Shown here: positions 3,727-9,175 of the stretch, in pieces
Position numbering within the stretch: the stretch's first letter is position 1
How the letters are laid out: every line of letters starts with the position of its first letter
Origin: Planctomycetia bacterium
GTDB taxonomy: Bacteria > Planctomycetota > Planctomycetia > Gemmatales > Gemmataceae
Reading direction: 5' to 3'
DNA: 64,000 nucleotides
Assembly (NCBI GenBank): GCA_005772955.1
Contig: SXID01000056.1
Coordinates: forward strand, 1 to 64,000
Notes under the pieces: generated by a model
What the model saw: only the letters and a program-made list of their open reading frames with translations
Databases searched by the model: none
Told to the model about the DNA's origin: nothing
Translations under genes and position numbers: made by a program

Positions 3727-5034
3727 TCACGCTGGACGCGGCTTCGCGACGTAGCCCTTGCCGGTCTTCTCCGCAACCAATTTGTCGTATTCCTTTTGGG
3801 TCTTCACCGCGTCCGCAAACGACTTGCGTGTCTCGCGTCCCGGCGTACCGGTTTTGCCCCACTGCGTGACCACGTCGGTTCCGTCCGTCCACACTTCCCA
3901 GAACTTACTCGAACCGCTTTCGACGCACTCGAAGTACCGCTTCGTCGTGGTCGGCGCGCTCGCGGTGGGAGCAACCGCAACGACAGGCGTGGCGCTCTTG
4001 CGAGTCGGGGGAGCGGCGTTCGGGTCGCCGTCGGGTCGCAGTCCGACGTACACCGGGAATCGCGGAATGCCGTCGTTGGTCAGTTCCTGATACTTCACGT
4101 TAATGATGCTTCCCACGGCGGGCGGTGCCTCGCGTTCCTTATCCTTCAAGCCGGTGCCGACCTTGAACTCTTTTCCGTTGCCGAGCCGCGCGCGGAGCGC
4201 GCCGACGCGTCCGTCGTGCCGGCCGAGACCCGCTTCGTAGCCGATGACGATGGCCTCCGCGTCGAGGAACGTCTTGACCTTCAGAAGTGAGTGGGACCGG
4301 GTGCGCTCGTAGTTGGACCCAGGTTTGCGGAGCATCAGCCCTTCGCCGCCGAGCGCGTTGACGCGATTCAGTTCGGTGAGGAGGTGGTCGAGACCGCCGC
4401 ACACCGCATGGTCGTGAACGGTCGCGTACTTCGTCTTCCACGACGGCACCGCGTCGCCGAGGAACTTCATGCGGTCCTCGAACGGCCCCTTCGCGTCGGG
4501 CGCGTCGAAGACCACGTACCGGAGTTCGTTCCAGATGTCGGGTTTGTCCTGCCGCTTCACGATGCCGACGGCGCGTTGGAACGTCTTGCGCGCGATCCAC
4601 AACTCACCGTCGAGCGTGTGACCGGGCAGCCCAGCGGTGAACCAGTCCGGTGCGTAGAAGATGTTATTCTGGCGCGAGAGGAACTGCTTGCCGTCCCAGT
4701 AGGCGCGGACGCCGTCGAGCTTCTCGCTCATCCACCACCCAGTCGGGTCGTGCGCGTCGGTCCACACGTGGGCGAGCAGCACCGGCAGGCCCGCGTCCTC
4801 TTCGGCGCCTTCGGGCTTCTGCGGCTTCGGGGGCAGTGCGGACTGGATGCGGGCTTCTTCGTCCGCGTCGCCGCGGAGTTTCCGCAGGTGCTTGCAGGTC
4901 CGCTTCTCGATGGTCAGCGACTGGTTCCGCCACGCGGGGCAAGAGCAGGAGTACACGCCGCCGACGTTTTTCAGGATGTACGGCTTCGCGCCGGACCCTT
5001 GCATTTCGTGTGTTTGGCCGTCTTCAAGATCCAT
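3727..5034 (-). CDS. ATP-dependent DNA ligase with N-terminal SWIM and C-terminal WGR domains
   Basis: A 435-residue protein with three parts. Residues 28-50 hold a SWIM zinc-binding motif (CSC, about 14 residues, then CKH). Residues 90-330 hold an ATP-dependent DNA ligase core: motif I EKLDGVRAYWDG with the predicted adenylated lysine near 105, motif IV GGEGLMLRKP, motif V LLKVKTF and an OB-fold. Residues 358-420 form a WGR-type domain (KFWEVWTDGTDVVTQWGKTG), a nucleic-acid-binding module known from PARPs. The ligase core is of the small bacterial accessory type, used in repair rather than replication. Both extra domains suggest targeting to damaged DNA; that is inference. No strong ribosome binding site precedes the ATG, but the SWIM motif begins close to it, which supports this start. 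Confidence 0.85.
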   Translation of the reverse strand: MDLEDGQTHEMQGSGAKPYILKNVGGVYSCSCPAWRNQSLTIEKRTCKHLRKLRGDADEEARIQSALPPKPQKPEGAEEDAGLPVLLAHVWTDAHDPTGWWMSEKLDGVRAYWDGKQFLSRQNNIFYAPDWFTAGLPGHTLDGELWIARKTFQRAVGIVKRQDKPDIWNELRYVVFDAPDAKGPFEDRMKFLGDAVPSWKTKYATVHDHAVCGGLDHLLTELNRVNALGGEGLMLRKPGSNYERTRSHSLLKVKTFLDAEAIVIGYEAGLGRHDGRVGALRARLGNGKEFKVGTGLKDKEREAPPAVGSIINVKYQELTNDGIPRFPVYVGLRPDGDPNAAPPTRKSATPVVAVAPTASAPTTTKRYFECVESGSSKFWEVWTDGTDVVTQWGKTGTPGRETRKSFADAVKTQKEYDKLVAEKTGKGYVAKPRPA

Positions 5035-5111: not shown

Positions 5112-5660
5112 TCAGGCGAACAGCGACGCGACCGACACGGAGAACCCCGGCAGCACGTCGGGGATAGTGAGGTCGTCCGTGGCTGACAGCGTCTGCGGCG
5201 GGGAGTCCGGGCGGTACAGACTGGCCGTTTTCGTGTAGGGGTCCAGCACGAGGACAACCTTCACACCCGCGATCAGGTAGTCCGCGACCCTTTCAAAGAT
5301 GTGCGCCCAGTTGTACGTCAGGGAACGCAACTCGACACAAAACTCCGGTGGCGCCTCGATCACCCAGTCCGGCGTGCCGCCTGTCGGGAGCGCCGCGTGT
5401 GCCCAGAAGCAGAAGTCGGCGCCGCGTACGCGCGGCGGGTTGTTGCGAATCAGCACGAAGGTGTCGTTCGAGTACGCGATACCCAGCCCGCGTTCCTCGA
5501 TAAACGACCCGAAAGCGGAAACCGTGTTCGCGGCCACCCGCCCGCACAGCATCCCGGCCGGAACGAGCGGCACGACGACGCCGTCGATCAGTTCCGCGTT
5601 GTCCCCGCCGTGTTTGCGCAGAAACTCGTCGAGTGTCAGTCGCGTCGCGGGTGCGTTCAT
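5112..5660 (-). CDS. Uma2-family (DUF820) putative endonuclease
   Basis: This 182-residue protein matches the Uma2/DUF820 pattern: AELIDGVVVPLVPAG near the N-terminus, the acidic positions in GADFCF and EFCVELRS, and the end segment DYLIAGVKVVLVLDPYTK. The fold belongs to the PD-(D/E)XK nuclease superfamily; biological targets are mostly unknown, and the family is strongly expanded in planctomycetes and cyanobacteria. The ATG at 5660 is preferred over an upstream GTG at 5681 because GGAGG lies 5 bases before it. The usual Lys/Arg after the VE..S motif is replaced by a Trp/His-containing stretch, so activity is uncertain. It stands alone, 77 bases upstream (on its strand) of the ligase gene. 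Confidence 0.75.
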   Translation of the reverse strand: MNAPATRLTLDEFLRKHGGDNAELIDGVVVPLVPAGMLCGRVAANTVSAFGSFIEERGLGIAYSNDTFVLIRNNPPRVRGADFCFWAHAALPTGGTPDWVIEAPPEFCVELRSLTYNWAHIFERVADYLIAGVKVVLVLDPYTKTASLYRPDSPPQTLSATDDLTIPDVLPGFSVSVASLFA

Positions 5661-5788
5661 CACGTCCTCCGTTCGCTCCACTCTATCACTTCAAATCTTT
5701 CACGCCACCGCCAGTCCGTCTCGTGAAAGACCTTGGGCGAGTCGCTAGCTATAACCGGTACGCCAACTCACTCGTTCTGGAGTCGTGC

Positions 5789-6634: not shown

Positions 6635-9175
6635 GTGTCCAAACACGACGAAACCAGCGATCCGCCCCCATCCGCCACGCCCACGTTCAGCCAACAGCCC
6701 GACGCGAACGGCACCCTTCTGACAATAAACGAGCAAACCGTCGCAGTATTGCCCGCGATTCCCGGTTACGAGTTGCTGGATAAACTCGGTTCCGGTGGGA
6801 TGGGCATCGTTTATCGCGCGCGGGAGATCGCGTTCAACCGCGATGTCGCGATCAAGATCCTGCGCGTGCGATACCGCGCCGAGGCGATCAGCACGCGGCG
6901 GTTCCTCGAAGAAGCCCGCGTCATGGGACAGCTCCAGCACCCCGCCATTCCGCCCATTCACCAGATCGGCACGCTCGCTGACGGGCGCCCGTTCCTCGCG
7001 ATGAAGCTCATCAAGGGCGAAACACTTGCGAACCTGCTTGCGGACGCATCCGCGAGCCGCGGCATGTTCATCGCGGCGTTCGCGCAGGTGTGTCAGGCGA
7101 TCGCGTACGCGCACAGCCGCAAGGTGATTCACCGCGACCTCAAGCCCGCGAACGTGATGGTCGGCGCCTTCGGCGAAGTGCAGGTCATGGACTGGGGACT
7201 GGCGAAGTTCCTCACGGATTCGACAAGCCCACAACGCGAGCAAGGGCCAGATGTCAAAGACGAACGCGTCGAGATTCAGACAATGCAATCGCCGGATTTG
7301 GCGACGCTAGCCGGGAGCGTGCTGGGTACGCCCGCTTACATGGCCCCGGAGCAAGCAGCGGGCGAGGTGGACAAGACCGACGAGCGTTCAGACGTGTTCG
7401 GGCTAGGCGCGATCCTGTGCACGATCCTGACGGGCAAGCCGCCGTATTCGGGTACGAGTCCCGAAACAATCCGACTGACGGCGATTCGCTGGGAATCCGC
7501 CGACACGCTAGCCCGTCTGGATGCGTGCGGTGCGGATGCGGAACTGATCGCGTTGTGCAAACGATGCCTTAGCGTGGAGCAAAACGCGCGTCCTCGCGAC
7601 GCGGGCGAAGTGGCGAAGGCGGTAGCGGCGCACCTGGCTGCGGTGGAGGAGCGGGCTTGGCAAACAGAACTGGATCGCGTGCGCGCGGAAGAACGACGGA
7701 AACAACGGCGGGTTCGGTTCGCGTTGACCGGGGTGGTGGCGCTGTTGCTCGCGCTCACCGGCTTCGGGGCTGGCCTCGTCTCGCTGTGGCGCAACGCGGA
7801 AAGCGCGAAGAAGCAACTCGGCGCCGAAAAGAAACTAACGGAAAACGCCCACGACGAAGCCGTGCGCCTGAAAGCCGACGCGGACGCGGGGCGTGTTGAA
7901 GCGGATCGTTTACGCGGCGTCGCGGAGAAAGCAGAGGCGAAAGAAATCCAGGCACGCAAGACGCTGGAAGTGTTCGAGTACGGCCGCACGATTCAGGTTG
8001 CCCACCAAGAACGGCGTGACAACAACATTCTCGGTGCCGGGACTTTACTCGAAGGCACCCAACCAGAGTTGCGTGGCTGGGAATGGTACTACGTCCACCG
8101 CTTGTGCAACGGCTCACTCCTCACCCTCAAAGGGCACACGGCATGGGTGACGTCCGCGTCGTTCAGCGTGGACGGTTCACACATCGTCACGGGCAGTTGG
8201 GACAATACGGCGAAGGTCTGGGACGCCAAAACGGGCGCCGAGGTCCGCACCCTCAAGGGGCACACGAATTTGGTATCGTCCGCGTCGTTCAGCGTGGACG
8301 GTTCACGCATCGTCACGGGCAGCCGTGACACAACGGCGAAGGTCTGGGACGCCAAAACCGGGACCGAGATGCTCACCCTCAAAGGGCACACGGAATGGGT
8401 GTATTCCGCGTCGTTCAGCGTGGACGGTTCACGCATCGTCACGGGAAGCCACGACAAGACGGCGAAGGTCTGGGACGCCAAAACCGGGACCGAGTTGCTC
8501 ACCCTCAAAGGGCACACGGAATTTGTGACTTTCGCGTCGTTCAGCCCAGACGGTTCACGCATCGTCACGGGCAGCCGTGACAAGACGGCGAAGGTCTGGG
8601 ACGCCAAAACGGGCGCCGAGGTCCGCACCCTCCAAGGGCACACGGACTTTGTGTATTCCGCGTTGTTCAGCGTGGACGGTTCACGCATCGTTACGGGAAG
8701 CCACGACAAGACGGCGAAGGTCTGGGACGCCAAAACCGGGGCCGAGGTCCGCACCCTCCAAGGGCACACGGCATGGGTGTCGTCCGCGTCGTTCAGCCCA
8801 GACGGTTCACGCATCGTCACGGGCAGTCAGGACAATACGGCGAAGGTCTGGGACGCCAAAACCGGGGTTGAGGTGCTCCCCCTCAAGGGGCACACGGAAT
8901 GGGTGACGTCCGCGTCGTTCAGCGTGGACGGTTCGCGCATCGTTACGAGCAGCCGTGACAATACGGCGAAGGTCTGGGACGCCAAAACCGGGGCCGAGAT
9001 GCTGACCCTCAAGGGGCACACGCACTTGGTGTATTCCGCGTCGTTCAGCGTGGATGGTTCACGCATCGTCACGGGCAGCCACGACAATACGGCGAAGGTC
9101 TGGGACGCGAGGCCACTGGACCGCGAGTTCCTGCTAAAGGAACTGGCCTCGCCGCCACGAGTCCTGAGCCGCTGA
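6635..9175 (+). CDS. Membrane Ser/Thr protein kinase with C-terminal WD40 propeller
   Basis: A protein of 846 residues starting at GTG 6635, seven bases after GGAGG. The kinase domain covers about residues 48-340: glycine loop [14 protein letters not shown] lysine, catalytic loop [13 protein letters not shown] in place of DFG, and MAPEQA. A transmembrane helix lies near 361-385 ([19 protein letters not shown]), then a charged coiled coil, then eight 42-residue WD40 repeats. The kinase should face the cytoplasm and the repeats the other side, or both may lie inside; the sequence does not decide. Pkn-type kinases with WD40 sensors are a planctomycete hallmark. The repeats are nearly identical in DNA as well as protein. 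No obvious partner gene is adjacent. Confidence 0.92.
8120..9127 (+). repeat. Eight tandem 126-bp WD40 repeats
   Basis: Eight consecutive 126-base units each encode LTLKGHT...ASFSVDG, then SRIVTGS..(N/K)[10 protein letters not shown]. Units differ at only a few codons (positions after GHT, VDG or PDG, SR/SH/SW/SQ). Eight blades exceed the usual seven of a closed propeller. DNA-level near-identity points to recent amplification or gene conversion. Confidence 0.95.

Follow-up and report, generated by a model that had tools for sequence, protein, structure and literature searches.

The DNA analysed here, referred to as the window, is a stretch of 64,000 nucleotides (positions 1–64,000 of contig SXID01000056.1) from the Planctomycetia bacterium assembly GCA_005772955.1, a genome designated G000 below. 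One gene on its minus strand encodes a protein of 435 residues composed of an N-terminal SWIM-like module, an ATP-dependent DNA ligase core of the Lig E type and a C-terminal WGR domain. Its features are as follows:

3727–5034, minus strand: gene for the 435-aa protein (SWIM–Lig E ligase–WGR), from the ATG at 5034 to the stop codon at 3729–3727
4840–5028, minus strand: N-terminal SWIM-like zinc module, residues ~3–65, assigned by motif and profile comparison; pLDDT 78–90 over residues 1–60
4888–4947, minus strand: predicted zinc ligands C30, C32, C47 and H49 (CxCx14CxH), invariant in 28/28 bacterial homologues with a complete SWIM motif
4024–4785, minus strand: Lig E-type core (nucleotidyltransferase and OB fold), residues ~84–337, assigned by NCBIfam PRK09125, PDB matches and fold
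4711–4722, minus strand: ligase motif I, K105-L-D-G108, invariant in 18/18 aligned proteins
4036–4230, minus strand: OB-fold domain, residues 269–333 (Pfam DNA_ligase_OB_2, E = 8.5e-25)
3742–3939, minus strand: C-terminal WGR domain, residues 366–431 (Pfam WGR, E = 3.7e-15; match to the WGR of PARP3)
3853–3861, minus strand: WGR signature W392-G393-K394, with aromatic-G in 18/18 aligned proteins and K/R third in 16/18

The initial annotation had proposed that SWIM, ligase and WGR parts are combined in one polypeptide, and this was borne out, WGR by Pfam and SWIM by profile and motif. Pfam places a ligase nucleotidyltransferase, an OB-fold and a WGR domain in that order along the protein. A plus-strand gene at 3727–5034 was ruled out, as that strand holds unrelated frames. 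A chance fusion or an assembly artefact was also ruled out, because the three-part protein recurs in other genomes at 75% down to ~47% identity. The AlphaFold model of the protein (pLDDT 79, pTM 0.53, 11 sequences in the alignment) has two linkers, residues 68–93 and 342–362, with pLDDT below 50; at this pTM, the relative placement of the domains is not informative.

The core is of the Lig E type, with its ligase motifs intact. It matches NCBIfam PRK09125 (3e-92, 308.6 bits against a 200-bit cut-off) and, over residues 97–254, Pfam DNA_ligase_A_M (1.6e-7). Its best PDB sequence matches are the Lig E proteins of Psychromonas (4d05, 1.1e-57), Alteromonas (6gdr) and Neisseria gonorrhoeae (8u6x), with which it shares fold, motifs and ~39–40% identity in structural alignments. 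Lig E structures are also the best rows when the AlphaFold model is searched with Foldseek and VIA-align; the top VIA-align row is DNA-bound Lig E, 6gdr (Z 23.9, r.m.s.d. 3.3 over 245 residues), and since the rows shown are ligases throughout, the search bears on the fold of the ligase core and not on that of WGR or SWIM. K105, D107, G108, E144, E231, K252 and K254 are invariant across 18 aligned proteins, K105 of motif I being presumably the residue that is adenylated. Such a core would be expected to seal nicks with ATP. The initial annotation had thus recognized an ATP-dependent ligase correctly but had missed its Lig E type.

The WGR domain scores 56.2 bits against a Pfam cut-off of 22 (PF05406), and so lies far above the threshold, over residues close to the 358–420 originally proposed. 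A profile of 16 such WGR domains matches the WGR of PARP3 (2eoc, 4.4e-8) and the Bacteroides WGR protein 2ra8 (7e-24). In PARPs, WGR reads DNA 5′ ends through its W-G-R signature, which is W-G-K in the window protein; the first position is W, Y or F in all 18 proteins aligned. The window protein therefore resembles PARP1, PARP2 and PARP3 in its WGR sequence family and its aromatic-G-basic signature, but the PARP-type ADP-ribosyltransferase catalytic domain is absent (no Pfam match in the protein). Many bacterial proteins of unknown function contain WGR, searches of Planctomycetota and Myxococcota returning numerous WGR-only matches; DNA-end binding by the window domain would therefore be an extrapolation from PARPs.

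The SWIM assignment stems from profile similarity and an invariant motif, and not from a curated single-sequence cut-off. Pfam SWIM has no match at E ≤ 1 in the whole window protein; the isolated N-terminal domain reaches 11.1 bits (E = 0.31) with PF04434, below the cut-off of 19.6, and in a PF04434 search of the whole genome the same site scores 9.9 bits (E = 5.5). At E ≤ 10, 14 of 26 homologous N-terminal domains match Pfam SWIM (best 8.8e-4), compared with 5 for the next most frequent Pfam family. In a profile–profile comparison (hhalign), the ligase N-termini were aligned with SWIM proteins, namely the Pfam SWIM matches from the same genome together with retron SWIM proteins, giving E = 1.9e-6 and a score of 32.1 with all four ligands aligned. 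This score was reached by none of 150 fully column-permuted controls (maximum 19.6) and by none of 150 controls in which the four ligand columns were kept fixed (maximum 29.9). The C30-x-C32-x14-C47-x-H49 pattern shows no change in any of the 28 bacterial relatives whose N-terminal module is complete, a set selected for a motif-bearing N-terminus in which rows lacking the motif (plain Lig E or truncated) are uncounted. When the SWIM profile was compared with the PDB, none of the 11 matches with E ≤ 10 (the best at 0.43) was to a SWIM-named chain. These comparisons support a SWIM-like module whose similarity extends beyond the ligand residues, and the module may bind zinc. The proposal of a SWIM motif in residues 28–50 therefore stands as regards the motif (C30, C32, C47, H49) and the profile comparison, whereas the Pfam match remains below its curated cut-off; taken to the letter, a curated profile match is lacking, but in substance the proposal is not refuted.

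Lig E has been described, in the available part of PMC6144786, as devoid of appended domains and unable to complete DNA encirclement, and, in that of PMC8455567, as essentially proteobacterial and mostly periplasmic, with a leader in 144 of 208 sequences. Unlike these proteins, the window protein comes from Planctomycetota, has SWIM in front of and WGR behind the core, and has no periplasmic leader: its N-terminus, MDLEDGQTHEMQGSG..., runs directly into SWIM and, as read from the sequence, contains no hydrophobic leader. It is in this respect like a leaderless Lig E cluster reported from Myxococcales (Myxococcota) and fungi (PMC8455567, available part). The same report includes fewer than ten Lig E sequences from Planctomycetes and Verrucomicrobia, within its length limit of 250–370 aa; because its network is restricted to that range, WGR proteins of the present length fall outside it. 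Neither SWIM nor WGR is mentioned in the available portions of PMC8455567 and PMC4220977.

The WGR part is already known from one species. According to the available text of a 2021 study (PMC8567305), Tuwongella immobilis GMBLW1_22390 is a short ligase homologue with a C-terminal WGR, labelled a LigA homologue, and was detected as protein only in the SDS fraction, alongside UvrABCD and MutSL. That fraction also held ribosome and tRNA enzymes, and a repair complex is therefore not proved. The Tuwongella and window proteins, compared by description alone, are alike as planctomycete ligases with a C-terminal WGR; the available text mentions neither a SWIM domain nor a Lig E nature of GMBLW1_22390. 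In a literature search covering mostly papers outside subscription, we found no earlier description of the SWIM module, the Lig E identity, the exchange of WGR and BRCT, the phage forms or the retron operon described below, and no paper joining WGR with a SWIM domain, or a retron with WGR or WHSWIM.

A survey for the same architecture, which the initial annotation had called for, showed that it recurs in Planctomycetota and Myxococcota. A scan of genome contigs gave 16 loci, 10 of them with a SWIM-ligase (3 Gemmataceae or Isosphaera records and 7 delta/Myxococcota-type records). In larger genome searches, the tallies of which are lower bounds (best 5 candidates per genome), a SWIM-ligase was present in at least 7 of 294 sampled Planctomycetota genomes, that of the window included, and in at least 16 of 329 sampled Myxococcota genomes. 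In two of the seven, G279 and G191, the ligase pieces are split, and three further Myxococcota genomes have a Lig E core lacking SWIM.

A feature of these proteins is how the accessory modules are exchanged. In 21 of the 28 bacterial proteins whose SWIM motif is complete, the ORF also includes a clear WGR, which lies behind the core in 19 (the window protein, L003, L004, L005, L006, L007, L009, L012, L077, L078, L079, L080, L134, L137, L139, L140, L141, L143 and L144) and in front of it in two (L133 and L145). One of the 19, L137, has BRCT in front as well as WGR behind. Three others (L135, L138 and L142, the last reaching the contig end) start with BRCT and show no WGR; searches with Pfam BRCT gave 1.6e-9 for L135 and 3.8e-9 for L137, and the BRCT of L138 and L142 was read by eye from the sequence. 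In three more (L010, L132 and L136), a separate WGR gene lies beside the ligase gene, the L136 ligase having an additional weak WGR-like stretch (E = 0.001), and in L146 the reading frame is broken. WGR or BRCT thus accompanies SWIM-Lig E nearly throughout. Both are modules that bind DNA ends or nicks, and their repeated choice argues for a break-binding role; of the comparative evidence, this exchange points most strongly to DNA-break binding as the possible role of the added parts.

In the genome of the window, this gene is the only match to PF01068, PF01653 detects one NAD+ LigA, and Ku has no match. Ku was not detected in 21 of the 30 genomes with the ligase (G000 and 20 others) and is present in the remaining 9; the ligase is therefore not simply a Ku substitute, and substitution for Ku was rejected as a general rule. 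The protein is like LigD and LigC acting with Ku in being an ATP-dependent accessory ligase with a proposed part in break sealing. It differs from them in the lack of a detected Ku in G000, in having no polymerase or nuclease domain by Pfam, and in an NHEJ_ligase_lig score below the cut-off (58 bits against 228), on which ground a LigD/LigC identity was rejected. Clustering of 503 neighbouring genes within 5 kb revealed no conserved repair gene around the ligase. Directly upstream of the ligase gene, on the same strand and 75–77 nt away, is a gene for a Uma2-family nuclease, both in the window (5112–5681) and in L003 (1805–2422). The translation of window positions 6635–9175 reads as a large protein resembling Ser/Thr kinases and bearing WD40-like repeats.

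Three Myxococcota loci, L009, L010 and L144 (genomes G300, G301 and G589), link the ligase to type XIII retrons. Each has the order msr-msd RNA, reverse transcriptase (RT), small WGR gene, SWIM-Lig E gene, the small WGR genes of L009 and L144 and the RT of L009 being read from open frames. The apparent operons span L009:150–3988, L010:2332–7772 and L144:879–6496. The genes are separated by 12 and 20 nt in L009 and by 46 and 86 nt in L010; in L144, 3 nt lie between WGR and ligase. The L009 RT matches PADLOC RT_XIII (5e-147). For L010, the SWIM protein encoded upstream of the RT is a SWIM_XIII match (4e-126), and the small WGR protein has only a weak match to WGR_XIII (0.001). The two ligases tested with PADLOC, those of the window and of L010, have no match, and annotation of the ligase itself as a defence gene was rejected. 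Upstream of the RT, all three loci share a conserved RNA that is closed by inverted repeats and includes a long hairpin, as expected for an msr-msd; in 23 of its 93 predicted pairs, at least one sequence has changed on both sides with pairing kept. A search of six loci with Rfam detected no retron family, all rows scoring below the gathering threshold.

The window protein thus shares SWIM and WGR modules with type XIII retrons (PADLOC RT, SWIM_XIII, HEAT-ARM_XIII, WGR_XIII), three of its ligase relatives standing in such an operon, but it differs in lying away from the RT of its own genome. That RT, type XIII-like and 51% identical to the L010 RT, adjoins a SWIM_XIII-like protein (36% to that of L010) at L083:6703–10062 (G000:C248). 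It is the only RT of its kind in the genome; no ligase gene lies beside it, and no RT is found among the neighbours of the window ligase. Ligase and such an RT occur together in 2 Planctomycetota genomes (7 with ligase and 3 with RT of 294; hypergeometric P = 0.0014) and in 7 Myxococcota genomes (16 with ligase and 25 with RT of 329; P = 4.5e-5), a co-occurrence to be read as a lead only, as the RT bit-score limit was chosen after viewing the list and kinship and genome size are uncontrolled. At G490:C38:170682–172170, another type XIII-like RT has a WGR gene directly behind it, and that genome encodes its ligase at a different site.

SWIM-Lig E proteins are also encoded on viral contigs. A viral scan with a single protein gave four weak matches, and a scan with an alignment gave 258 relatives, 80 of which were kept. 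The SWIM motif is present in 20 of these 80 loci (contigs of 20 to 527 kb), and WGR has no match in any of the 80. The viral SWIM-Lig E genes without WGR are at L159–L172, L174, L208, L213, L214, L224 and L231. An uncultured phage of 485 kb in INPHARED, LR745208.1, covers residues 1–341 of the window protein at 44% identity; most other phage ligases listed match mainly over the core, at ~30%. Two of the viral SWIM-Lig E contigs, L159 and L164, carry NAMPT genes of a phage family, and 7 of 10 neighbour proteins tried from viral contigs are without a named function or without a match.

A tree was built from 68 core sequences, including 30 viral rows chosen from the 80; the incomplete L081 and L082 were left out. 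All bacterial SWIM-Lig E proteins fall in a supported group of 39 rows (96/93), together with nine viral proteins with SWIM and two without, and Photobacterium Lig E falls apart from it. The remaining 10 viral proteins with SWIM are placed immediately outside this group, next to viral Lig E lacking SWIM. Within the tree, the window ligase groups with L003, L004 and L012 (100/100). The BRCT proteins are united with L143 in one clade (100/100), and a second clade (98/77) consists of the pair with WGR in front. Support is lacking for 22 of the 65 inner branches, and whether transfer ran from phages to bacteria or the reverse cannot be read from this tree.

On balance, we favour the view that the window protein, which has no leader and is most likely cytoplasmic, is an accessory ATP-dependent ligase acting in DNA repair beside LigA and without Ku. 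The Lig E-type core would seal nicks, and the N-terminal SWIM and C-terminal WGR, on flexible linkers, would bind DNA around the break. In this way the two modules could give the minimal Lig E core a hold on DNA that it lacks by itself, replacing DNA encirclement. By analogy with PARPs, WGR may sit on the 5′-phosphorylated end of a nick or break. Repair would then proceed alongside the NAD+ ligase LigA in a genome in which Ku was not detected. A break-repair role, which the initial annotation had also suggested, appears the likeliest because the ligase motifs are kept, the accessory modules that vary among the relatives are WGR or BRCT, and LigA but no Ku was detected; the end binding that it presupposes is something we infer. 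Less secure is the further suggestion of the initial annotation that the enzyme recognises and seals ends unaided, double-strand ends being no more than a possible substrate: Ku is present in 9 of the 30 genomes with the ligase, in several relatives WGR is on a separate protein encoded alongside, and three relatives belong to a retron operon.

SWIM and WGR might instead be mainly docking modules for protein or RNA that recruit the ligase to a partner, for example a type XIII retron, with break recognition secondary. The close spacing of msr-msd, RT, small WGR and SWIM-Lig E in L009, L010 and L144 fits this, as do the use of SWIM by type XIII retrons themselves, the existence of a WGR_XIII model in PADLOC and the co-occurrence of ligase and RT above expectation (2/7 against 3/294, and 7/16 against 25/329). 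The RT of the window's genome, however, is on another contig (C248) without a ligase, and the three operon loci belong to one subclade, which also has unlinked members; the co-occurrence, moreover, depends on an RT threshold set after viewing the list, with kinship and genome size uncontrolled. We rate docking as the main function as improbable.

Somewhat less probable still is a captured phage ligase, in which SWIM-Lig E would have originated in large phages and gained WGR later, in bacteria, with generic nick sealing as its present role. The distribution of SWIM (20 of the 80 viral loci kept from 258) and WGR (none) is what such a history would leave, as are the match of the 485-kb phage to residues 1–341, the clustering of viral with bacterial SWIM-Lig E in the tree and the phage-family NAMPT genes on two of the contigs. 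Transfer from bacteria to phages would fit too, however, given the unsupported inner branches, and this account concerns origin more than mechanism. We consider it very unlikely that the protein is a ligase of the envelope or of extracellular DNA, like proteobacterial Lig E with extra domains only. Its core is closest to Lig E, whose members mostly have a periplasmic leader, but here the leader is absent, the N-terminus is a Cys-rich zinc-type module and the tree sets window-type ligases apart from Photobacterium Lig E; as a counterweight, planctomycete membranes are heavily invaginated and the Tuwongella WGR ligase was found in the SDS fraction (PMC8567305, available part).

Under the favoured break-repair reading, the window protein is a concrete candidate enzyme for the accessory sealing of breaks in those Planctomycetota whose genomes have no Ku. 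Lig E has been held up as a ligase that works with its catalytic core alone, mostly outside the cytoplasm; a recurrent leaderless branch with SWIM plus WGR or BRCT would be a natural experiment in which one core occurs both with putative end-binding modules and bare. The three operon loci give a first lead to a retron-tied ligase. More speculatively, and with considerable doubt, SWIM-Lig E could be a new class of break-recognising ligase common to bacteria and very large phages, one branch of which is a working component of type XIII retrons, with RT, RT-DNA, WGR protein and ligase acting together on DNA ends, for example by sealing or capping in phage defence or its recovery.

Two further observations concern the accessory modules in other contexts. 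At L132:8862–10298, directly downstream of the SWIM-Lig E gene, WGR is fused to a β-propeller (PQQ-like). In Myxococcota, the protein encoded at L150:4159–6084 (G519:C37) combines the same kind of SWIM domain with an HPF1-like (histone PARylation factor) domain (Pfam HPF1, 6.3e-12), ankyrin repeats and a tudor-like end.
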